Shown: in pieces, positions 2,103-37,291 of the stretch
Numbering within the stretch: the first letter of the stretch is position 1
Layout: every line of letters begins with the position of its first letter
Assembly: GCA_036674765.1 (NCBI GenBank)
Contig: JARVKI010000041.1
Coordinates: forward strand, 295,773-359,772
DNA: 64,000 bases
DNA from: Seiridium cupressi
Taxonomy: Eukaryota; Ascomycota; Sordariomycetes; Amphisphaeriales; Sporocadaceae
Reading direction: 5' to 3'
Program-made: the position numbers and the translations under genes
Notes under the pieces: generated by a model
Seen by the model: the letters and a program-made list of their open reading frames with translations, nothing else
Databases searched by the model: none
What the model was told of the DNA's origin: nothing

Positions 2103-2540
2103 TCATTTCTTCTTGTCAGTGGCATCGCCTTCGCTGTCAGTAAGGAGCGTCGAAGCCCAGTAGAGTGGGGTGTCTCGTTTTTTCTCATCCTTCTCTCCGT
2201 CAGTGAGAAGGGTGGAAGCCCAGTAGAGCGGAGTATCTCGTTTCTCCTTGACAGCAGCATCATCTGCGCCATCGGTCAGAAGCGTTGAAGCCCAGTAGAG
2301 CGGAATGTCTCGTTTCTTCTTATCATCCTTGCCGTCAGCGAGAAGGGTGGAAGCCCAATAGAGCTCCGCACGCTCCTTGATAGAGGCAGGGTCGATTGAG
2401 CCCTCCGCGCCACCCTGATCCATTGTTAGCAACGGGGAAGGGGGTTCTGGTGTCAGTGAGTAGCTCACGGTAACAGGGGCAGCTATTCCAAGGGCAGAGC
2501 AAAAGCTCAAGATGACAGTGACAGCTGACTTGGCAATCAT
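2103..2540 (-). CDS. Kex2-processed repeat precursor peptide, likely dikaritin-type RiPP precursor
   Basis: The single-exon frame gives 145 residues. Residues 1-20 form a signal peptide (Lys near the start, hydrophobic core, likely cut after ALGIA). A Pro-rich leader (21-57) follows, then four copies of LYWASTLL[A/T]D[G/S] at residues 60-70, 81-91, 105-115 and 126-136. Copies 2-4 are each preceded by a basic site and a short linker, KKKR-DIP, KEKR-DTP and KKR-DTP; copy 1 has KER-AE. Acidic spacers (KDDKK, ADDAAVKE, EKDEK, EGDATD) separate them and the protein ends in KKK. A secretory signal, tandem cores, KR sites and acidic tails are the architecture of UstA-like precursors. The UstYa gene 2 kb upstream supports this. 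No Cys lies in the repeats, so it is not a normal alpha-pheromone precursor. The final peptide and its chemistry are unknown. Confidence 0.82.
   Translation of the reverse strand: MIAKSAVTVILSFCSALGIAAPVTVSYSLTPEPPSPLLTMDQGGAEGSIDPASIKERAELYWASTLLADGKDDKKKRDIPLYWASTLLTDGADDAAVKEKRDTPLYWASTLLTDGEKDEKKRDTPLYWASTLLTDSEGDATDKKK
2133..2363 (-). repeat. four tandem core-peptide repeats inside the precursor gene
   Basis: The cores are encoded at 2331-2363, 2268-2300, 2196-2228 and 2133-2165, that is 63, 72 and 63 bases apart. The 33-base core units are nearly identical at DNA level (the complement of CCCAGTAGAG recurs), while the spacers differ in length and sequence. This pattern suggests recent duplication or homogenisation with selection on the core. 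Confidence 0.85.
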
Positions 2541-2680
2541 GATAGCGATTTATGACTTGGTAGTGTCAAGAAGGCTTTAGGCAGTTAAAAAGTGGCAATT
2601 CTGATGGCAATGGCAAGTGACTAGAAATGAGGTGCTCTGTAGTCCAAGTCAAGCACAGGAATTGATAAGATTGAGGAAGG

Positions 2681-2690
2681 TTTTTATAAT
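2681..2690 (-). promoter_or_regulatory. possible TATA box of the precursor gene
   Basis: On the minus strand the sequence reads ATTATAAAAA about 145 bases upstream of the precursor ATG, a plausible TATA element. No other promoter evidence is available. Confidence 0.3.
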
Positions 2691-4546
2691 ATTCTACGGA
2701 GCATACAGAGGCTCTACATAGATGGAGTATCGCCTGCTGAACCACGAGCCTCTGGCTGAGAGGGCTCACGGAACCGGCATACCCTCTCCTTACTCGGCGA
2801 TGTGATTGTCGCTTTCCAATGTGCTCATCAACGGTGGCTTACGCTACATTGCACGCAAGCAGGAGCAAACATCCCGTTCAGCACACCGCCGTAGATGTTG
2901 CCCCTTCACCATGCAGATACAATGGGTTGTCTTAGACTGGTCGGCTTTCTGCTTTTGACTTCTTGCATGAAGCCTAGAAGTCCAATCACAGCGCTCCTAA
3001 GCACGTATCGAGTCTCCATCACATAATCTAAGCAGCCAGAACGGACTATGTCGCCTTACAAAAATACTTTGCATTTTCTGTGGCACTAGTCAAGTCGATC
3101 ACAAGATCAATGATTAATTAGCAAATAACTAAGTCATAATCTACTGAGAAACAATGCTGTCTGTCCATCAAGCCGTAGCCTTCGAGCCCGATGTCAACGA
3201 TTGCCACATAGGAATTACAATAAGGCTTAGATAGTACAACAGATCGCAGCCAGTGGAATGCAGAGATCATGAAATTTTGTGTGGAGCACGCTAAATACTT
3301 CCCGTGTTAAGAATCAGGTCATCTCTCCGTAGTTATTCTAACTAGTGTATAAGCCTATGAAACGCTAGATTATGAGACATGATTGACTCTTGATTAGTAT
3401 TAAGACAGTATCATGACAATTGTGGGAACTGTGGTCGCGTATAACGGTCCGGTGCAAGTCCACGTTGTATGGCTCCTTGAACTAATTCAACAGAAATACC
3501 TTGCAGATTGATCGCGGCCGAAATAGAGGCTTGATTTCCTGCAGGACCGGGCAACCTAGCATCGAATCCTGACGCCTCAGATTCCTATTGGCCCATGCCC
3601 GAAAGCACTTCATCACGCATATGGCCAGCCAAGCGGGCGCGTGGATAGCCTGTGCTGGCCGGCCATGAAGCGGAAGCCAGCTGGAGCTAATCGGATTTAT
3701 TTTTAGAGATTTGGGGATACAGTTCGACAACGAAGACTTCAGCTGGATTTAGCAGCTTCTACCTCTACAGATGTTGAAGGCAGTCTTCTGTTGTATGCTC
3801 TTAATGCATACGATCACTTCATATGATCGACTACTTCTTCGATCCTTTTCCAGATTTTCCGCTGATTTTCCGACGATTACGCCCAAAGCGCTGAAGTGTG
3901 GTCCACATTGTTCGGCCGTGTACTAGGTGGTGTCACTTTATTGCGCAATGTTTGCTCTGAATCAGTGAGTGGGCCGAGTATTCGGAGCTTGAAAAGCGGA
4001 CCGGTGCAACTTTATACAATTCAGACCCGAAGGGGTTGAGGGTCGGGGAACTCTGGCTGACACAAGCTGATGACAGGCCCAAGCAAGTTGCTTCTTCTAA
4101 GCAAACAATCTGATTTCGGTGGACATCAGCGAGGATGTTAGTGGAGCTCATTGAGCACATCTTGCGGTGATCGAATGTCCGAGAGATGCCCTGGGCTGGA
4201 AAATGGCACGGGTACGTGGACGTCGCTGAAACCACCCGTATGCACGGTATTTCTGCAAAACCATGCTTTTCCATGCCAAGTCTTGTATCACCGTCAATTT
4301 ACCGGGCATAATTGCCAACTAGTGCTAGTGCATTGAATAAGCGCTGATTGGGTACCACTAGTCTGGATATACTACGATTGGGTGTGTCAGTGTACTATGA
4401 TAGCCTTGCTGGCAGAAAAGCATTGTCGTGCAAACACAATGGACATGGATGCAAGTTGCAATTTTCAATTCGTATCACAACAAAAGTTCGGACCCACTAT
4501 ACACATCCAAGAGGCAAAGCGCCGCATGCTAGCAAAAGGGTCTGCT
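2691..4546. other. non-coding stretch between precursor and UstYa gene
   Basis: About 1.9 kb without a recognisable gene. Short frames at 3482-3730, 3933-4274 and 4348-4647 have no family features. It should hold the upstream region of the precursor and the 3' region of the UstYa gene. No further cluster gene could be read here. Confidence 0.5.
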
Positions 4547-5753
4547 TCACAATATGTGGTCATCATCCTGGTCACCCCCACTCAGATGATTCGGGTTCTC
4601 CTCTCCAAACAGCTCATAATACCGATCTGGAGCTGGTAACTGCGTGACCCCTTTGGGTTTAGACATGACTTTCTTGTACTTGTCCATGTCTAGTGAGACC
4701 TGCTTCCTGAACTCGGTCAGGCCGTCAAAATCGATGCACTGGCGGTTGATACTCATATCTGGCCAGGGCAGGTCCTGCGTTTCTACCCCTAGTGGAAAGG
4801 GAAAGACAAATATGTTAGCTTCTTACTTCCATCGTCAAATAGTAGACTCCCGCCGCTTCCAATACAGCCAGCTTCTTCGAGTGACGCGTTGATTCCGCCG
4901 ACAGAAGATACCAGAGTACTGGCTACCTTGAAAGTGCAAAGAATACTGTACTTACAATGCAAGGTCATCAGATTAACGTTGCCACTGCATTGGATAGCCT
5001 GGAAGAGAATGTCTGCGCAGTGGTTGATATGCATTTCGCGCAACTTGAGTGTATGCGCTCGACCTTGGGAGACGTTGTAGTAGTTACCATAGGCGATCTT
5101 GCGAAGGCTGTTTAGACAGTGAAGCTGGTGGTAAACATCAAAAACTGCACCGTATGCGTTGTCACCCAGGCCCCAAATATGGTCTTCGAGCTTGATGGCG
5201 GTATCGGGATCTTTTCCAAGCTTTACGATAGTCTCTTTGGTGACTGGCATGACACGGAGTAGCTCGTATTCCCACCAGAGCTCATCGGCCTCGTCATTCG
5301 GCTGGTGGCGCGCGATTGAGGGACTTCTGGGTGGGAACAGCGTGCCGTTAATCGTCGCTACATGCGGCTGCAAATCAACCATATCGTGTATAGGAGCTGT
5401 TGTTTTACATCAGTGGATGATCGGGGGATGGTGCTGTTGGCCTGGTCGTTTTATGGCGACTTGAGTTTTCGGAAGGACTTACACCAAGAAGATGTTCGTC
5501 TCAGATCAGGGTTCAGGGTTTTGGATTGATGAGAGGGACCAACAGATATTGTTAAGAAAATAAGCGAAGTGACGAGAATGAGACAGTTGATGGCCGTGAG
5601 TATGAAATACCACCGAACGGATCTTGGTGTGCGCTCATCTGACTGCGTCGGTAACAAGGTCTCCGTTTCGATGTCAGGTTCGGTGCCAGGGAGCGTCGAC
5701 GTCTCCATGGACCCCCTGATGAGCGAGTACTTGGACTCAGATACGTGATCCAT
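4547..5753 (-). CDS. UstYa family (DUF3328) oxidase-like protein
   Basis: Three exons, 5753-5483, 5396-4956 and 4788-4547, give 317 residues. Introns are 86 and 167 nt with GTAAGT donors and CAG/TAG acceptors, and all joins keep frame. Features in order: cytosolic N-terminus (start chosen at MDHVSESKYSL, typical of the family), one membrane helix at about 48-72, the family segment around INGTLFPP (106-113), the first copper-site motif HQLHCL (180-185) and the second, HINHCAD (213-219). These two HxxHC motifs define DUF3328 proteins, which carry out oxidative cyclisation or halogenation of fungal RiPP cores and act as single-pass secretory pathway proteins. A tail of about 80 residues (HWVETQDLPWPDMSI...) follows. 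All motif His and Cys residues are present, so it should be active. Its neighbour, the repeat precursor, is the natural substrate; that link is inference. Confidence 0.88.
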
Positions 5754-6510: not shown

Positions 6511-7957
6511 CTAAGCAAAAAACCTGTTTCCTGGCCGTCTGAGTCCCAAATGATCCCTGAGTGTCTGGCCATCATAATCCTTCCTGAAAATGCCCCTCTT
6601 CTGCAACTCGGGAACTAGCCGTTCAGCTACATCATCTAACCCCTGGGGTAGATAGGGAAAGACGACATTGAAGCCGTCCGAGCCCTCCTCCATGAGCCAC
6701 CTTTCCATCTCATCTGCGACGGTCTCGACCGTTCCCACGAAAGCAAGACCAGAATATCCTCCGTAGCGCTGAGCCAACTGTCGCACCGTCAACCCCTCTG
6801 CTGCTGCAAGTTTCAGCACACCCTCTCGAACTGACTTGCTTGCGTTTGTCTCGGGGATGTCCGTCGGTAAAGGAGCGTCTGGGTCGAACTTCGATGCATC
6901 TGTGCCTAGCGAGATCGACAGAGACGCGATGGAGCTATCGTAACTGACTAGACTATCTAGTTTCAACCTTTTCGCCTGTGCGTCTTCTGCAGTATCCCCA
7001 ATGACTACGAACGCTGCGGGGAGCAATTTGATCTGCCCGGGATCTCTGCCCGCGGCTTTCGCTCTGGACTTGACGTCGGCGTAGAACGCCTTGCCTGCCT
7101 CCAGATCCTTGGGCGCACAAAACACAACCTCAGAGGTTTCCGCCGCCAGTTGTCTTCCGGGCTCTGACTGCCCAGCCTGAACAATTACGGGCCAGCCCTC
7201 TGTGTCAAATTGGGATTAGTCATTGCTATTACGGCAAATCATCCCGGTCCTGCAACGGGGTATATTGCAAGAACAAGCCAGACGATGTACGACAGGTGCC
7301 AAGAAATTACCCACGCGGCGGTCGTGCGATATTCAACGGACCTCTAACCTGAAGGTCAGGGCCTTTATGGTCTAGCACGTGTATCCGCTCAGGATCAACG
7401 TATATGCCACTCTCTAGGTCCCGGATGAATGCATCATCTGCGAAGCTATCCCACAGCCCCGTGACGACATCGTAGAACTCACGGGCGCGAGCGTATCGCT
7501 CCCCATGCTCCGCATGCTCATCGAGACCAAAGTTCCGCGCCGCATCTGGGTTGGCCGTAGTGACAATGTTCCAGCCTGCCCTGCCACCGGAGATGTGATC
7601 CAGGCTAGCAAATCTTCTAGCAATATGGTATGGTTGATCATATGTTGTGGAAGCAGTGGCGACCAACCCGATCTTACTTGTCACGGCTGCCAGTGCAGAG
7701 AGCAGCGTGAACGGCTCGAAGGATGTCACGGTGTGGCTGCGCTTAAGTGCCTCTACTGGCATGTTGAGAACTGCCAGGTGGTCCGCCATGAAGAAGGCGT
7801 CGAATTTGGCGGCTTCTAGTTTCTGTGCGAACGAGACTATGTGGCCGAAGTTGAAGTTGGCATCCGGGTATGAGCCTGGATATCGCCAAGCGCCCGTGTG
7901 CAGGCTCACAGGCCGCATGAAAGCGCCGAGGTGGAGCTGTTTCTTCTTTTCAGCCAT
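6511..7957 (-). CDS. FMN-dependent monooxygenase, NtaA/SnaA/DszA (luciferase-like) family
   Basis: Two exons, 7957-7315 and 7199-6511, joined across a 115-nt intron (GTGGGT donor, CAG acceptor), give 443 residues, the usual length of the family. Start MAEKKKQLHLGAFMRPV was preferred over the upstream ATG at 8068 because family homology begins there. Visible motifs: FDAFFMADHL, then FEPFTLLSALAAVT, then SGGRAGWNIVTT (flavin region), and PPQGWPVIVQAGQSE, which is restored exactly by the splice join. The family uses FMNH2 from a separate reductase to oxygenate or desulphurise small substrates. It is the nearest neighbour of the UstYa gene and in the same orientation, so it may tailor the RiPP product, but this class is also common as a stand-alone catabolic enzyme in fungi. 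Confidence 0.85.
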
Positions 7958-10863
7958 GGTGAATATAGGCCCACGTTGACCGGGACTACCGTTGGTTAGC
8001 GACCTGTGATATAACAGAGCTATAGGATTGTAAGGACCCTTAATAGTTGATGCCGGAGGAGTCGGCATGGCTTATACACATTAGGGATGACGCGATTGGC
8101 GCGGATAATGGCGTATGCTCCGGATTACAAATCCGTGGTGGGGCCTGCATTCAGCCGGAGCAACAAGATCTACTATGTAGACGCCGGGTTTCAATGGAAT
8201 TCTGAGCCTCTATAATTGCATCAACGCTAAAGTCGGAAGAGCTTGCTATGAAGTCAAGGGCGTTCAACGGCGAGGAGTATTATCCAGAAGAACGCTACAA
8301 CTCGGTATCGCGTAGGATGAATGAGATTGTACTTAGTGAGTATATACCCCAACTGTAAAACGACCAGGTACCGAGTTTATCACAGGATTAAGAATACATG
8401 GCAAACTTTGATCTTGTCCATCTGCAGGTGCCTGTCGTGGATACTATAATAATGTACGTAAAATGCGAAATACTGAGTCGGCAGCTTCTTGAAAAGACCT
8501 CATAAGTGCCGAAACATCAGTGACTTCCAATGCGATTATACGTAGTCGAGAAAATTTCATTTTCTCTTCACGGCCCGATCAAAGCAAACTCGCTGTACGT
8601 CACAAAAGACAGAATTAAGTACCCTACCTGCCTGTAGATGCTATTAGAATGCTGCTTCAAAATTAACCACGCGCTCAGATGTGTTCTATGGTCACACAGC
8701 CTCACATAGACTGGCCTACTGTATGCCACATAATCTAAGACCCGTGAAGAATTCGATAATATATTTCTCGGACTGAAAGTTGCTGTCACCAGTTAGATCC
8801 AGTGTAGCAAGTCTCTGCTGTGTGAGATATACAATATTGGTTCATGATTCACGATGTAATATTCACGAAATTATGGAATGACCCGACTCTTTAATACTGG
8901 ATTTGGAGACTTCTCGATATTATCATACAATGATTTAAGTTTGTAAAGTTATGACTTGCCTCGTTACGGTGTCGGCAATAGCTGGTTCAAAGATGACAGA
9001 CCTTACATTCTGTCAAGATGTAAATGCTCTTCCACCATGAGATGAGTCCAACAGGACACGACCTTCCTGTCTAATCGTAGTGATAGGTTGCTGTGAATCG
9101 AGAGCCTAACCTCTTTCTAATTGAAATTTGACATTTGAGTTTGTACCTCTTCTTCTACTTGGAAGCAGCGACAAGGACACTAAAGGTATCAATACCACGA
9201 CACAGAATGTCTGTCCACTTCAGGATCTGGTGGTCGCAGCAGAGGTGAACCCCCTCGGCGGCGACGCGACAAGCCTTAGCGAAAAGAACTTCACAATCTG
9301 TATAACGCCGAGGATCTCCAGGAGGAAGGATTTCCGCCTTCTTTCTTAGGCTGAACATGCTGCGGACGCGCGAGAGTGTGCGGCTTCTGTTGTATGCATC
9401 GGCCCCAAGGACGAGATTTGTCACGGGGTGCGATCAGAAGGATGAGGGGCTATATACTCATGGATACTACACCAGTCAAAATTACACGATTGATAGAAAG
9501 AACAAATTGGATTCCCAAGTGGCTAGGAGAGAAAAGCTGTGAAAAGTTGTATAACACAGAATTTGAAGCAGAATATTTTCTAAATGACACCGGCACAGCT
9601 AGTCAGCAATTAAATAAATGGGTGATTTTATCCGTAGACCTCGTAGAGCGGCTCATGGACCGAAACATCCAGGAACTAGGCCATAGCAATACAGTATCGC
9701 TCCAGTCCTTGATTGACCATTCCGTTGATATCTGTTCGCAATCATGATGTGACCGTAGGCAATCTGCGTACGTCGTTGGCATGGGCATCTGTGAGGAAAC
9801 CTCTTACGCTATAGGTAGTCCGCCAAAGTGGGAACAAGACTCAAAGGACATGATTCGGCATGCCGAGTGCCGAGTTGGTTCTGTATGCGTGCGGGCTGTG
9901 CAAACGCACAGGTCCGCCAATAATGACGACGACGACGACGATGATGGAGCAGTTCGTACAAGCGAGGGCAGCGTCCAGTGAAGCTTCTGTGGGCCTAAGG
10001 TACGTCGCGCAGTGTACTGTTCACCGCTAGTGGGAGTTAGCAGCACTATGTGGCCTGTGCGTTTTCTTATCAAATGCCGCCAAATTTTTTCCAGGCCGCA
10101 CGACTTGACATGTGCATTCCATACCACGAAGAAACTGAGGAACAGGATCCGAAGGCGTCGAAGGCCCAGCGGTCAGATACGTGCTCAATACCACGGTAAG
10201 AGGGACCATGGGGTCTATTTCCTTTCTCTTTCTCTTTGTCATGTCTTTTACGGTTACGCAGTAACTTGACTCCGGCTACTCGCCTTTCTACGAGTCCTCC
10301 TCTGGAGGGTCTTGGAGCCGCTTCGCGTCTTGTGTTGTGGTGACAAGTTGGCATGGCTAGAGCTGCTGGCGGTGCTTTCGCATTGCCAGCCGAAACGCTG
10401 CAAGAACAAAACATTACTGGGCCATCATAGTCCACGCTCGTCATCTTTTATTGCTACACTTGAGCGTGGCTCCCAGCGCTCCAACATTTATTTTGACCGA
10501 GAAGCACGGCGCTTCCCAGCTAGAATGCACATGTACATACGCTACATTGGCTAGCAGGTCTACGGTACACCACATTAGTGAAGCTTGATGCTCAGTCAGC
10601 CTTTGGGAAGCTTGCTGTCCCGCCGGTGCCCGCCAAACCCATCAAACCCCCCACAATGCTCATCCGTCGAATCGGTCCATTTGCTCCTCAGTGCCCGTAC
10701 TTGTTTGGCAACAACGACGTCACACATGCAAGTCCAGCAAGCTAGCTTGGTCCTCTGTTCTGTGCTTGTACGCTGCCAAGAAGTTTCCTAGCCATGACTG
10801 GTAGTATAGAATATAAATCTTCAATGTGTTAGACTATTTCACCTCGTACACTCGAGCAATTAC
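7958..10863. other. long non-coding stretch
   Basis: About 2.9 kb without an assignable gene. A minus-strand frame of about 90 residues between stops (around 9155-9436) has coding-like composition but no start codon and no family I recognise; it could be a relic exon. A short GAC microsatellite lies at about 9923-9945. The last part is the malic enzyme promoter. Confidence 0.5.
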
Positions 10864-28649: not shown

Positions 28650-29081
28650 TCAGTCAACCCACCAAGTGACCTTCTTCCCCTCACAAGTCATTGTACCTGT
28701 GGCCGCAGTCCTGCCACTGCTACCGAACCGCGAAATTGCCCCGTCATATACGTCCAATATATCTTGGTTCGCAAATGAGAATGACAGAGGGTCCGCCTGT
28801 CCAGGTCCGCGGCCGATGGAGAATTGGCACGGAAAGCCGACGACGCTTCGTCTCTCGCCCGGGGCACTACCAGTCAGGTTGGCGAACCAGTCACCGGCAT
28901 CGGAGGCCACGCCGTGGCAGGCGTCCTGACATTCGGCGTTAGTTGGGGCCGACGAGTTGATGGGATGTGCTGTCCATGTGTCTGGAGTGCAGTAGCCCGC
29001 GACAGACTTGTCACCAGTGCACGACTGTGCAGAAGTGAAGGCAGCCAGAGAGGCAAGGAGAATAAGGGCATATTGTTTCAT
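28650..29081 (-). CDS. small secreted six-cysteine protein, effector-like
   Basis: Single exon, 143 residues. A clear signal peptide (MKQYALILLASLAAFTSAQ, cut before Ser20) is followed by a mature protein of about 124 residues with six cysteines at 21, 31, 51, 55, 85 and 133, enough for three disulphides. Recognisable segments: SVAGYCTPDTW, AECQDACHGVASDAGDWF, VGFPCQFSIGRGPG and the end MTCEGKKVTWWVD. Similar small secreted proteins with the CQDACxGV...DAGDW pattern recur in ascomycetes that live on plants or insects, some viewed as effectors, but no activity is established and none is claimed here. Small size, secretion and the Cys pattern make it effector-like. Confidence 0.78.
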   Translation of the reverse strand: MKQYALILLASLAAFTSAQSCTGDKSVAGYCTPDTWTAHPINSSAPTNAECQDACHGVASDAGDWFANLTGSAPGERRSVVGFPCQFSIGRGPGQADPLSFSFANQDILDVYDGAISRFGSSGRTAATGTMTCEGKKVTWWVD

Positions 29082-29655
29082 TTTGCTTGGCTGAAGTGTT
29101 GGAAGGAGCGAAGTGCTGGGCTCAGATGGTGGCGCGAATTATGACAATTATTGTTGGTTCTCGAGATGGGTATGTGAGAAAGAAAGACTTAGGTTTGCTC
29201 TTACGATGCTCTTGATCAGGTATTTATAGAAAAGTTGTAGGGCAGTATCAGACAACATCACCTCCGAGGTTTGTGATGACAAGGCGAGCAAAGTACAAAT
29301 GTTCAGAGTCTGGAACACTCGATTCAAGTGAACAGGAAGTCCCGGGTCTAGGCTTTGATGGACCACTAATAAAGGATTCACCATAGTGTAATATAAGACG
29401 AGGGAAAAAGAATCCCATTGACTGCCGTCAGCAGCCACTAGTTAGTACTTACTAGAACTGCATATTATTTGTCACTCCTATTGCCCTTGGCAAAACTTTC
29501 TGGCGCCCGTCAGCGTGACTGCAGTTTGCTAGCTCGTCACCATTAGGATCAATAGTGCTGCATTTTTGGGATCTTCATCGAGAGATTTGCTTCGCACGTA
29601 CGACATTTCAGCAGATAGAGACTGAATTGTAAGAACAGCTAGCACTAATTTTGGT
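29082..29655. other. non-coding stretch
   Basis: Upstream region of the small secreted protein and 3' flank of the esterase. No gene seen. Confidence 0.6.
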
Positions 29656-32268: not shown

Positions 32269-34844
32269 TCAGGGAAATGAGTCGGCATTGTTGAGATCGT
32301 CGAACGACACGTCGCACATAAACTCCTCCCACAGTTTCCACGACTGATCCCATACAGTATCGTCCGGATTGAAGCCAAGGTCCGCGGCTACAGATGTTGG
32401 CTGCGCCTGGTCCAACAACGTCTCAGGGGTCCGGGAATCGTCTAACGACAAACTTGTCACGTCAGTTATTACGGTTGTTTTTGGACTTGCGTCCATTTGA
32501 GGGGTCCAACAGTCTTGTGCCGGGTTTCGGTGATGTAGGCTTTAATGCTTGAGGTTGAGTACGTGTGGTATAAGGGACCGTATAATCGTTGGCGGCAGAG
32601 ATCGCCAGCTTCTCACGGGTTCGGCTCATGAGTTGTCCGAGGGGTCCTTGCAAATGACCACCACTATGTTTCGTGAGGACTGATTCGTAGCGTTGGTATA
32701 AAGACTCGATCAACGTCCACGCTTGTAGTGCGAGAACGCGGTCCGTACACACATAGCACTCAGCAATGGCAATAGCTAGGATCTAAACCAAGTCCCAGTT
32801 AGCCACTACTCTTTCCGAAAATTTCAAACCAGGCCTCAGCCTTCAAATTAAAGACTTGGATTATGTTCCGAAGGAAGAAGAGGGGAGAAAAAAGCAGAGC
32901 AGATAGAGTTCAACACGTTACTTACGTGCCACTGGATGCTGACCATCCAGCGAAAGCGCTCAGCGCGAGGGTCAGTGTGCATGAGCTCTATCTTTTCTAA
33001 CGCTCTGATGGTCTGATGGAGAAGTTCTTTATTATCAGTCAGCCGGGGAGGGGCCTCTTCTCCAGACAGCTGCGCGCGATGCAACGGACGCAGTGCTGCG
33101 AGTCGCCCACCAGCGACAAACAACTGTGTACTGTGCCACGTGAACCATGCGTATGGCGAAGATTCGGGATCGCAGAAGTGCAGGAGGTGGAGAGCTTTTT
33201 GTTCGAATTGCTGCGCGTGCTGCTGTGCTCTCTCCCACTTTAGTTGAAGACCAGCCACGAATGACGTCGGGCCCCTGCCCTCACCAATTTGCCGTCCATA
33301 AACCTGCAAATGGAACTTAACAAGCGCAAAAGTTGTGTCGGTGAGGTCTTCCCTTTCAGGGACAGGTTCGATTGTCGTGGGCTCAAAATCAGAATCATTG
33401 ATGTGTTTGACCAATGTTATGGAGCTTGTCACCTCTTCAATGCCAATGAGTGGTTTTGAGGCATGGGCCAGTGAGGTTTGAAGATCCATCACGGATATCG
33501 TAAGCCAGAGGCGATTTCTCAATTGTTGATCGAAGAATGTCCTACATCCCGGCGTGCCTATAGGTAGGTCTACATGTAGACGCAAAGCTTTAGCAATTCT
33601 GACGGCTATGGCAACCAACGTCCACACGGCCCGAGTACGTTCTGCTGACGCCCTGGCAGCCTATATCACGCACAGCGTGGCACGTCAAAATCTGTCTCAA
33701 ATTTAAGTGGCGGGTTGCGTTAGAACGTACAAGATACAAGACGAAAGCTTGCAAAGCGGTGATATCTCGTGTCGTCAGGAGTCCTGACTTTTCAATGGCA
33801 GACTCACATGCCTTTCGACAGTCCGCCACCATGCCGGATTTTTCAATGTTGAAGATAGCACGACTTTGGTCTTCTGTCATGCTGTTGGCGGATGAATAGC
33901 ACACCGCAGCGGCGAGGGCAACTGCGGAAGGATGTTGATCGGGATATTTCATGTACGTCTGTCCCTGCATCATCCATCTCGAGAGCGAAGGCCGATGGAG
34001 GATCTTGATGATAGGGTCGACTTGGTCGAGATAGATCCCACATAGTTGACTTGCCAAATCCTTGTCTTGATGGAAGGATATATGGTTGGGAATCCATTGC
34101 CAATCAGCCGGGGAAGTAGTGCTACTTGATAGACCTAGCGCCATAAACCCACCGTCAGAGGAACCAAAATTTTCTTGAGCAGGAGCTTGTGCAATTTCAC
34201 TGTCAGCCTCGCCGGGTTTCAGCGTCACAATATCGCGAAGCTGTTCCACCTATACAAGGAATAATAAGTTACAGACTACCAAAATGACAGGACTCTAAAC
34301 GAAACTTGCCAAATTATTGCATATATCGGCCTGGAGAAATGAATTATAGCTTTATACGCAAATAATGCCGACCAGTGAGCAAAGTCACTGCTGACCAGTT
34401 GAACACCGACTTCACCAGGATTCAGATGAAATAAGAACTCACTTCTTGCACTAGATCCTCCCAGAAATCATCTGGCCCTTCCTGTCTCTCACTGCCGTTC
34501 GGGACTGCTGAGCTCGGCGGCAAGAAAGCGGCGCGAGTCGAGCTCATGGCCTGCACGAGAGTCTCCAATCTACGGATGCGGTCTCTGAGCTCTCCATTCG
34601 TCTCGTCTACCACTTGACCTTCAGTGTTCAATGGAGACGATGCAGAAGTTGGTAACGCGCAACGGGTCCGATGGACATGCCGGCCTCTTGGGAGTCGGTG
34701 CCGATGGACTGGGACACACGTCGCCCCGGCCGAGAGGCAATTGGTGCAGGGCTCCAACTTGTCGCATTTTACCTTGCGTTCACGACAAAGCTCGCAGCTC
34801 AGCTGTGGAGCCCCTCGGCTTCTTTGCCTGTTGGAAGAAGACAT
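32269..34844 (-). CDS. Zn2Cys6 transcription factor with fungal_trans domain
   Basis: Five exons as read (34844-34443, 34249-33731, 33660-32926, 32782-32563, 32513-32269) give 706 residues. The DNA-binding cluster uses Cys17, 20, 27, 33, 36 and 43 (CELCRERKVKCD...CTNC), followed by a basic linker and a coiled coil (ELRDRIRRLETLVQAM). The fungal_trans regulatory domain runs through FHQDKDLASQLCGIYLDQVD, ITALQAFVLYL, RTRAVWTLVAIAVRIAKALR and NRLWLTISVMDLQ. The short final exon carries the acidic C-terminal region (WDQSWKLWEEFMCDVSFDD), typical of these activators. The last intron (49 nt, GTACTC...AAG) is inferred from frame and could instead reflect a frameshift; otherwise exon 4 would end at 32462. 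It is divergent from the MFS exporter gene, which it may control. Confidence 0.83.
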
Positions 34845-35674
34845 ATGGATTGAAGAAGGATTCGCTTAATTTGAGTGAGAGTCAGGAGCAACGTTCTGAT
34901 AGTGATGGGCTTGGCCAGCTGGACCCGCATCAGAGGATCGACGCTAGGTTAGGATCTTGAATACATCGTTACCCACTACTGTAGCTAGACTAAAACTCGC
35001 CATTTATGAAGACATTACTTTGGTTAACCACAGAAACATACTCGGAGAGTCTCAAAGAATTACTTCAAACGCCGTGTCTAAACACTCCCTTTTCTTTTGA
35101 AGAAGTAAAGTTAAAGTTCAAAACTTGCCATCAATAAATTTCTCTTTGCCTAATAAGACTTATGTCCATCTTCAAAGTGTTGACGTCATGGTATTGGGTT
35201 TATATAACTTGCTTTCCCGAAAGCGCAACAAAACCTACGTGATATGTTTTGCCTCTGCCTAATAATAAATGTCTTTTTCGATACTGCAATGCAAACTAAT
35301 AGCGAGTTTGCATAACGCCATTCCAAGGGAGGCATGCAGAAGGTAATTACCGTAGCTGTAAGCGGCCACTGAACACCAGGATATCCACCATGGGTCTCAT
35401 TTAGCCTAGCCCATCTTCAAAACCCGAACAGAGTGTATTATTGGCCAGCCGGCTTTTGTCGCTCGACTTTCATCGTACGCCAAAAGCGAATGATAGTATT
35501 GCGCCTCCGAGTTACTCAGACTTGGTGAACTAAGTACAGAGAGGTGAAGAAGGAATCGCACCTTGAGAGAGCCCAAATCTATAAATACACAGTTCCCCAA
35601 TTGGTATCAGAAACAATGGCAGAATATAAGCCTATATACCCAGCTTTGGCGTTTCCGGACAACCAACATCCAGC
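34845..35674. promoter_or_regulatory. bidirectional promoter region between regulator and MFS exporter
   Basis: 830 bases separate the divergent starts of the Zn2Cys6 regulator and the MFS transporter. It is the natural place for shared operators, such as CGG triplets bound by Zn2Cys6 proteins, but I could not pick out a convincing repeated site. Confidence 0.4.
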
Positions 35675-37291
35675 ATGACCCAAGTGAGAGAAGCTACGCC
35701 TCAAATGAAGGAATCGGATTCGAATATCAATACGCCGGCTTTGAGCCTGGAAACTCGTGGATTCCAAAACAATCCCGACTTGAAGGCTGCGCATCGATCC
35801 AGCTCGGAAATCAAGGATACCCGGAAGGATCCTGATCTTATGACCTGGGACGGACCTGACGATCCAGAAAACCCCAAGAACTGGGCGACTAGTAATAAGT
35901 GGATTGTCACTATCCTCATCTCAGCATTCAATTTCATATCACCCGTCGCATCCACCATGGCAGCCCCAGCGTTGACAACAATAGGTGCAGACCTCGGGAT
36001 GCAAAGCGAGGTCGAAGTCGAGATGGCATTGTCCATATTCGTTCTGGCTTATACCATAGGACCCCTTTTCTTCGGACCTCTTTCTGAAGTATATGGGCGT
36101 TCCCGGGTTGTGCAGCTGAGCAATCTGTGGTTTCTGGCCTGTAACCTCGGGTGTGGCTTTGCCCAAAACAGTGCGGAAATGTTTGTGTTTCGCTTTCTCG
36201 CCGGTATTGGCGGCAGCGCACCGCTCGCTATTGGAGCTGGAACTTTAGGGTAAGCACCTGCGTTTAGAAGCCTTATTGATCGACACCCTGTTAATGTCGT
36301 CTCGCATTCTAGTGATTGTTGGAGCCCAGCGGAGCGAGCAAAGGCTGTTGGAATATACATGCTCACGCCTCTTCTCGGTCCCGTTGTCGGTCCGATCGCT
36401 GGCGGGTTCATTGCCGAGAGGACAACATGGCGATGGATCTTCTGGTCTACCAGTATCGTAGCCGGCTTCATACAAGCATGCGGCTTTATCTGGTTGCGGG
36501 AATCGCACGCGCCGACACTCCTCAAACGAAAGAGAGATCGACTCGTGAAAGAAACCGGAAATAACAAATTTCATTTAGGTGACGATGCAGATCAGACCCT
36601 CTTCAGTACTGTAGGCACGGCATTGGCACGACCCTCACGTATGCTGGCCACGCAGCCTATCGTACAGCTGGTCGCTCTCTATATGGCTTACTGCTTCAGA
36701 ATAACCTACCTTATCGCCGTCACCTTCCCCGTCGTGTGGAGCGAGCTATACGGCGAAAGTCTTGGCATTGGTGGCCTGAACTTCATTTCGCTGGGCGTTG
36801 GCAGCATATTGGGCGTGTTCCTGAATGTGCGCTTCATCGATAGAATCTGCCAGCACCTCAAGGAGAAGAACAACGGAGTTTCCCTCCCAGAGTTCCGCGT
36901 TCCCGCCATGTTCTTCGGCTCCACGCTCGTTCCTGTTGGTCTCTTTTGGTACGGTTGGAGCGTACAAGGACGAGTCCACTGGATTATGCCTAATATTGGC
37001 ATTGCCATCTTGACTGCGGGAACGATGATCTGCCTTCAGAGCATGCAAGGTTACATCATTGACACATATACACGATTTGCGGCGAGCTGCACAGCCGCGA
37101 TCGTGGTGCTCCGTAGTTTGGCAGGCTTCGGCTTCCCTCTATTTGCACCTTACCTGTACGAAAAATTGAATTATGGATGGGGTACAAGCTTACTGGCTTT
37201 CATTAGTATTGCCATTGGGGTCCCAGCTCCGGTTATGTTCTACGTATATGGGGCGAGGCTGAGGGCCAAGTCAAAATTCGCAAGTGGTTAA
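35675..37291 (+). CDS. MFS multidrug exporter, DHA1 type
   Basis: Two exons, 35675-36249 and 36313-37291 (63-nt intron), give 517 residues, the usual size for 12-helix drug:H+ antiporters. After a hydrophilic N-terminus of about 70 residues, DGPDDPENPKNWATSNKW is the family entry motif, followed by TM1 (VTILISAFNFISPVAST). The DHA1 motif GPLSEVYGRSRV (loop 2-3) and GPVVGPIAGGFIAERTTWRW (motif C antiporter signature at TM5) are intact, and the splice join restores TLGDCWSPAERAKAVGIY. Expected in the plasma membrane, exporting drugs or metabolites. It is divergent from the Zn2Cys6 gene and convergent with the GST gene, a setting common for detoxification or self-protection. Confidence 0.9.

Follow-up and report, generated by a model that had tools for sequence, protein, structure and literature searches.

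The window, that is the whole stretch of 64,000 nucleotides analysed here, covers positions 295773-359772 of contig C41 in the 45.4-Mb assembly of Seiridium cupressi. Its minus strand carries a candidate precursor gene for a ribosomal peptide. The nearest gene found upstream of it, at a distance of 2.0 kb and in the same orientation, is a UstYa/DUF3328 gene (Table 1). The precursor is a single open frame of one exon, starting with ATG and encoding 145 aa. No gene was detected between the two; the sole wholly contained ORF of at least 110 aa in the interval 2541-4546 (3936-4298, minus) matched no family.

Table 1. Features of the locus (window positions) and repeat precursors at four other UstYa loci (L018 to L025, positions within the respective locus).
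Feature	Position	Strand	Sequence or basis
KEP-type RiPP precursor gene	2103..2540	-	ORF reading; 906-frame repeat scan; single genome match
Signal-peptide-like N-terminus, ~residues 1-22, ends IAAPV	2475..2540	-	Hydropathy and sequence reading; cleavage site inferred
Core unit 1, LYWASTLLADG	2331..2363	-	ER before unit, no KR
Core unit 2, LYWASTLLTDG	2268..2300	-	Sequence
Core unit 3, LYWASTLLTDG	2196..2228	-	Sequence
Core unit 4, LYWASTLLTDS	2133..2165	-	Sequence
TATAAAA, possible TATA box	2682..2688	-	148 nt before precursor ATG
UstYa/DUF3328 gene, 317-aa model	4547..5753; exons 5753-5483, 5396-4956, 4788-4547	-	Splice model; PF11807; motifs
NtaA/DmoA-type FMN-dependent luciferase-like monooxygenase, two exons	6511..7957	-	TIGR03860 positions 1-206 and 207-422; start 7957 inferred
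L018 precursor, core GAWNAVVIT, 3 units	7071-7427		PGAWNAVVITSS; strict finder
L021 precursor, core NIIIKSSDTY, 3 units	6618-7055		IIIKS[T/S]DTYKRD; strict finder
L023 precursor, core GFLGEEEIWNSGKY, 2 units	8910-9152		GFLGEEEIWNSG; strict finder
L025 precursor, 2 units	4862-5124		IKNPDEVDF-like; strict finder

The first-pass annotation had described the precursor as carrying a signal peptide, four tandem near-identical cores with adjacent Tyr and Trp, KR sites and acidic spacers. A signal peptide is suggested by the hydrophobic start, as judged from hydropathy and by eye, and the four cores are present as LYWASTLL from residues 60, 81, 105 and 126. The description of the remaining parts held partially. 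Three KR sites lie between units, and units 2-4 start with DIP or DTP after KR, but unit 1 comes after ER instead of a canonical KR, and the last three residues of the protein are KKK. Each spacer contains 3-4 acidic residues but also 3-5 basic ones, and is therefore better called charged than acidic. Among the 906 stop-to-stop frames of at least 40 aa in the window, a repeated complex 6-mer occurred in three, and in more than two copies in the precursor frame only. The protein fits the Kex2-processed repeat proteins (KEPs; Le Marquer 2019, Umemura 2020), for which the published rule asks for a signal peptide and three or more repeats, each 8 aa or longer, between KR, KK, RK or RR sites (PMC7329392). 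Searched against the genome at E up to 10, the whole protein matched only once, with no second copy, and a genome search with the core pattern returned the four precursor units and one place on contig C71, with four matches in the backward control.

Secretion and Kex2 logic, together with Trp in the core, are also shared with alpha-type mating pheromone precursors. We consider it highly improbable that the gene encodes one, since no MF_alpha Pfam match was found and KR is directly followed by DI or DT, not by the XA/XP Ste13 dipeptide named as the signature in PMC7329392. In the same survey, genes of mating-factor/pheromone KEPs nearly all lacked DUF3328 neighbours, with three exceptions (PMC7329392). 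A genome search with the pattern WC...G[Q/E]xC did not reveal the true pheromone gene; it gave 10 scattered single matches versus 3 in the backward control.

Among the 33 nucleotide columns of the four 11-codon cores, 8 variable columns were synonymous and 2 amino-acid-changing, and by codon position 1, 2 and 3 the variable columns numbered 2, 0 and 8. Eight third-position columns were reached in 40 of 100000 random placements, and Fisher's test gave p = 1.3e-4. Pooled pairwise pS among the units was 0.55 and pN 0.044. These mostly synonymous differences argue that the core peptide has been kept by selection; the units are old enough to have gathered synonymous change while the peptide stayed nearly constant. 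The codon-position pattern also favours the minus-strand frame over an overlapping plus-strand ORF (1908-2288). None of the four units has lost its Trp, which thus probably matters to the product, but this does not in itself imply a cross-link site. The synonymous drift in the cores and the apparently intact state of both precursor and UstYa speak against a silent relic cluster whose product is no longer made, which we regard as improbable even though stop-separated ORF pieces at 685-1221 lie just beyond the precursor.

The UstYa gene was modelled by scanning splice combinations. Longer frames also arose, and the 317-aa model was preferred to them as the one that links up the conserved regions; its introns have standard borders, with donors at 5482 and 4955 and acceptors ending at 5397 and 4789. 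The model matches PF11807 over profile positions 3-219 of 220 (E 9.1e-49) and contains two HxxHC motifs, HQLHC at 180 and HINHC at 213, as well as a single hydrophobic helix, placed at about residues 48-71 by inspection of the sequence. In the fetched DNA 21 frames matched this UstYa, three being the window gene's own exons, and nine, its own included, contained both motifs in one frame. Since these nine made up the aligned set, it is partly by choice that its H and C columns are invariant. Each motif lies on a helix in an AlphaFold model of exon 2, which is of low confidence (mean pLDDT 60.6, 9 sequences). A sequence search with E up to 1 found no relative with a solved structure; four weak profile matches to an NADH dehydrogenase subunit (E 0.5-0.6) were taken as chance. 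In CctR, HxxHC(x)nHxxHC forms a binuclear copper site, the two coppers being bound by the motif and the domain placed in the organelle lumen, and the cyclase AprY is reported as copper-dependent (PMC12435403). A lumenal domain would share its compartment with a precursor that bears a signal peptide.

PF11807 matched 42 places in the genome, grouped as 30 loci, and 25 of these were scanned for repeat precursors: the window itself, 10-kb pieces for 19 loci and 6-kb pieces for five. With a strict finder of repeated 12-mers, Kex2-type repeat precursors were found at five loci, each with a different core, and none at the other 20; the finder reads single frames, so intron-split precursors can escape it. 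Three block shuffles gave no matches and reversed sequence gave seven. Five of the seven mirrored repeats already found in the forward sequence (L018, L021 and three in the window), whereas two (L024, L027) were not, and the two-copy matches at L023 and L025 are for this reason weaker than the others; these two calls rest also on signal-peptide-like starts and on location. All five precursors have a signal-peptide-like start ending in [AT]AP, by eye. At L018 and L025 a stop or frame change lies between this start and the repeats, where an intron is presumed, and in the L025 frame the second unit is followed by a stop. At the L025 locus (contig C10, about 649900-654500), ~5 kb also include one match to tyrosinase and two to UstYa, which recalls ustiloxin and phomopsin clusters. 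With a looser finder (9-mers), six matches were obtained in 314 kb versus seven in reversed sequence, and none in 62 kb away from UstYa; a looser-finder match at L030 was judged chance. P_proprotein (PF01483), a domain that Kex2 contains, has one match in the genome, a partial one. The five precursor-UstYa pairs place the window pathway as one of a set.

The closest paralogue of the window UstYa among the fetched frames, at L020, is 53% identical, and no repeat precursor was detected in its 10-kb piece; the clade of the window UstYa therefore need not be peptide-linked. Three PF11807 match rows at L020 2657-8890 apparently represent two UstYa genes, one being this paralogue, and similar His/Cys motifs were seen by eye in the frame 2657-3448. 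That most scanned loci lacked a precursor would also suit a linear Kex2-processed peptide, such as a hormone, effector or surface peptide, with the UstYa acting on something else. Such peptides are known, and for 78% of KEPs in one survey the 15 nearest genes include no DUF3328 member (PMC7329392). Regions lying 5 kb or less from one of the 30 UstYa loci make up about 0.7% of the genome, and a randomly positioned precursor would fall there that often, whereas here the two genes are same-strand neighbours and no intervening gene was detected. We therefore think a linear peptide unlikely. DUF3328 counts are also reported to peak at the gene adjoining KEPs (PMC7329392).

Beyond the UstYa gene lies the luciferase-like monooxygenase gene, a possible pathway member, and beyond that, further upstream of the precursor, a malic enzyme gene. 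To the left of the precursor, a glycine-rich protein gene ends near window position 230 by reading; two of its ORFs gave no Pfam match over a cut-off, and an ORF farther left is presumably HMG-CoA-reductase-like. On the plus strand at 685-1395 there are acidic ORF pieces split by stop codons, perhaps a decayed gene; the piece 889-1221 matched no Pfam family. The contig has a single DUF3328 match. It contains none of the 51 genome matches to tyrosinase (PF00264) and none of the three to S41 peptidase, and no methyltransferase was found among the ORFs submitted to family searches. An MFS gene at 36254 is ~34 kb away from the precursor. A Zn2Cys6 domain ORF lies close to the MFS transporter ORF (34425-37288), and at 28653-29138 (minus) there is an ORF with an Hce2 domain (putative necrosis-inducing effector family).

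Asperipin-2a has the core FYYTGY, and its pathway partners are a reductase and a transporter. At the present locus the core is LYWASTLL, with Trp and a single Tyr; such partners were not seen among the scanned ORFs, and the neighbour is instead the luciferase-like monooxygenase. The two pathways share a signal peptide, Kex2-separated repeats and a single UstYa/DUF3328 protein (aprA/aprY, Aspergillus flavus; PMC7329392), and that of asperipin-2a is described as having four genes (PMC10512285). Ustiloxin B and phomopsin likewise combine a KEP precursor with UstYa and a Tyr-containing core, but their cores (YAIG, YVIG, YVIP) differ from LYWASTLL. They employ two and five DUF3328 proteins, respectively, and need a tyrosinase (PMC7329392), whereas here there is one DUF3328 protein and no tyrosinase match on the contig.

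The class-defining enzyme of ust-RiPS/dikaritin pathways is a DUF3328/UstYa protein with two HxxHC motifs; an older, five-gene definition named tyrosinase, peptidase or transporter, and methyltransferase, and a later one rests on DUF3328 (PMC12048977). The pair of precursor and UstYa is the defining architecture of these pathways: a signal-peptide repeat precursor by hydropathy, Kex2 sites between the repeats and a nearby two-HxxHC DUF3328 gene are all present, and the tyrosinase of the older definition has no match on the contig. The first-pass reading as a Kex2-type repeat precursor beside UstYa is supported by a full-length UstYa 2.0 kb off, its two HxxHC motifs and mostly synonymous divergence of the cores. 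Adjacency, the intact UstYa, selection on the core, the four further pairs, the PF01483 match and the location of the two motifs on helices, in a low-confidence model, argue for a dikaritin-type reading. The missing tyrosinase and S41 peptidase on the contig, the first unit without KR, the L020 paralogue without a precursor and the 20 of 25 loci without one argue against it. On balance we consider it probable that the locus encodes a small ust-RiPS/dikaritin-type pathway, with a predicted product.

In such a pathway the precursor would enter the ER through its signal peptide, and Kex2 in the Golgi would cut at KR, and probably at KK too, to release DIP/DTP-LYWASTLL-TDG... peptides. The UstYa, whose family consists of dicopper oxidases anchored in the membrane and facing the lumen, would then oxidise the core. 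Kex2 cutting in the Golgi, dicopper oxidases of the UstYa family and the rings closed by a Tyr ether in ustiloxin, phomopsin and asperipin-2a are described in PMC7329392, PMC12186524 and PMC12435403. Most likely, a ring would be closed as it is in ustiloxin and asperipin-2a, by a bond between the phenol oxygen of Tyr and the beta carbon of a residue nearby. We infer from these systems that the window UstYa modifies the LYWASTLL peptide, that Tyr is the attacking residue, and which residue is its partner. Exopeptidases would trim the flanks and the product would be secreted; the luciferase-like monooxygenase may modify the product further or have no part in the pathway. Computed [M+H]+ values of the unmodified peptides are 966.5295 for LYWASTLL, 1239.6256 for LYWASTLLTDG and 2053.9601 for DTPLYWASTLLTDGEKDE, and one ring or one desaturation would shift these by minus 2.0157.

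The enzyme might instead cooperate with the precursor in a non-ring oxidation of the core, i.e. desaturation, hydroxylation or halogenation, for which the Leu and Thr side chains of LYWASTLL would be possible targets. DUF3328 members have been implicated in halogenation, hydroxylation and isomerisation besides macrocyclisation (PMC12435403), and in desaturation in phomopsin (PMC10512285). We hold this reading to be rather unlikely, as Tyr is found in 65.6% of UstYa-linked repeats versus 38.2% of others (PMC7329392) and the asperipin-2a pathway achieves cyclisation with one DUF3328 protein.

The first-pass annotation also pointed to the Tyr-Trp pair as offering side chains for cyclisation. Tyr-Trp cyclisation, like any part of Trp in the ring chemistry, is a prediction. 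A bolder reading, to which we give little credence, is that the single UstYa joins the core Trp to Tyr or Leu, so that precursor and one oxidase would form a two-gene pathway to a Trp-linked macrocycle resembling those of plant burpitides. No fungal RiPP is known to carry a Trp link that a UstYa installs. Amatoxins and phallotoxins contain Trp-Cys bridges (PMC9233826).

The core LYWASTLL, which had been put forward as novel, was not found in the open-access main texts searched; by title, none of the listed papers with fragments of it dealt with fungal peptides. This absence gives the claim slight support, and novelty is unproven: the survey by Umemura et al. (2020) holds 7878 KEPs in 838 types and 2560 singletons (PMC7329392). 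In that survey 1758 KEPs lie near DUF3328 genes, with Tyr in 65.6% and Trp in 20.5% of the repeats, and Trp is singled out as a feature of one UstYa-linked type, P-3 (PMC7329392). Because both are present among these UstYa-linked KEPs, neither the architecture nor a Trp-bearing aromatic core is new, and the precursor is, from its sequence, probably a new member of a known fungal ribosomal peptide family. Few dikaritins have been reported, five according to a 2022 review (PMC10512285), against 1758 predicted UstYa-linked precursors. A precursor paired with one UstYa and an invariant Tyr-Trp core would make it convenient to test the range of reactions open to a lone UstYa and whether Trp is a substrate, and the four further precursor-UstYa pairs with different cores in the same genome provide material for comparison.
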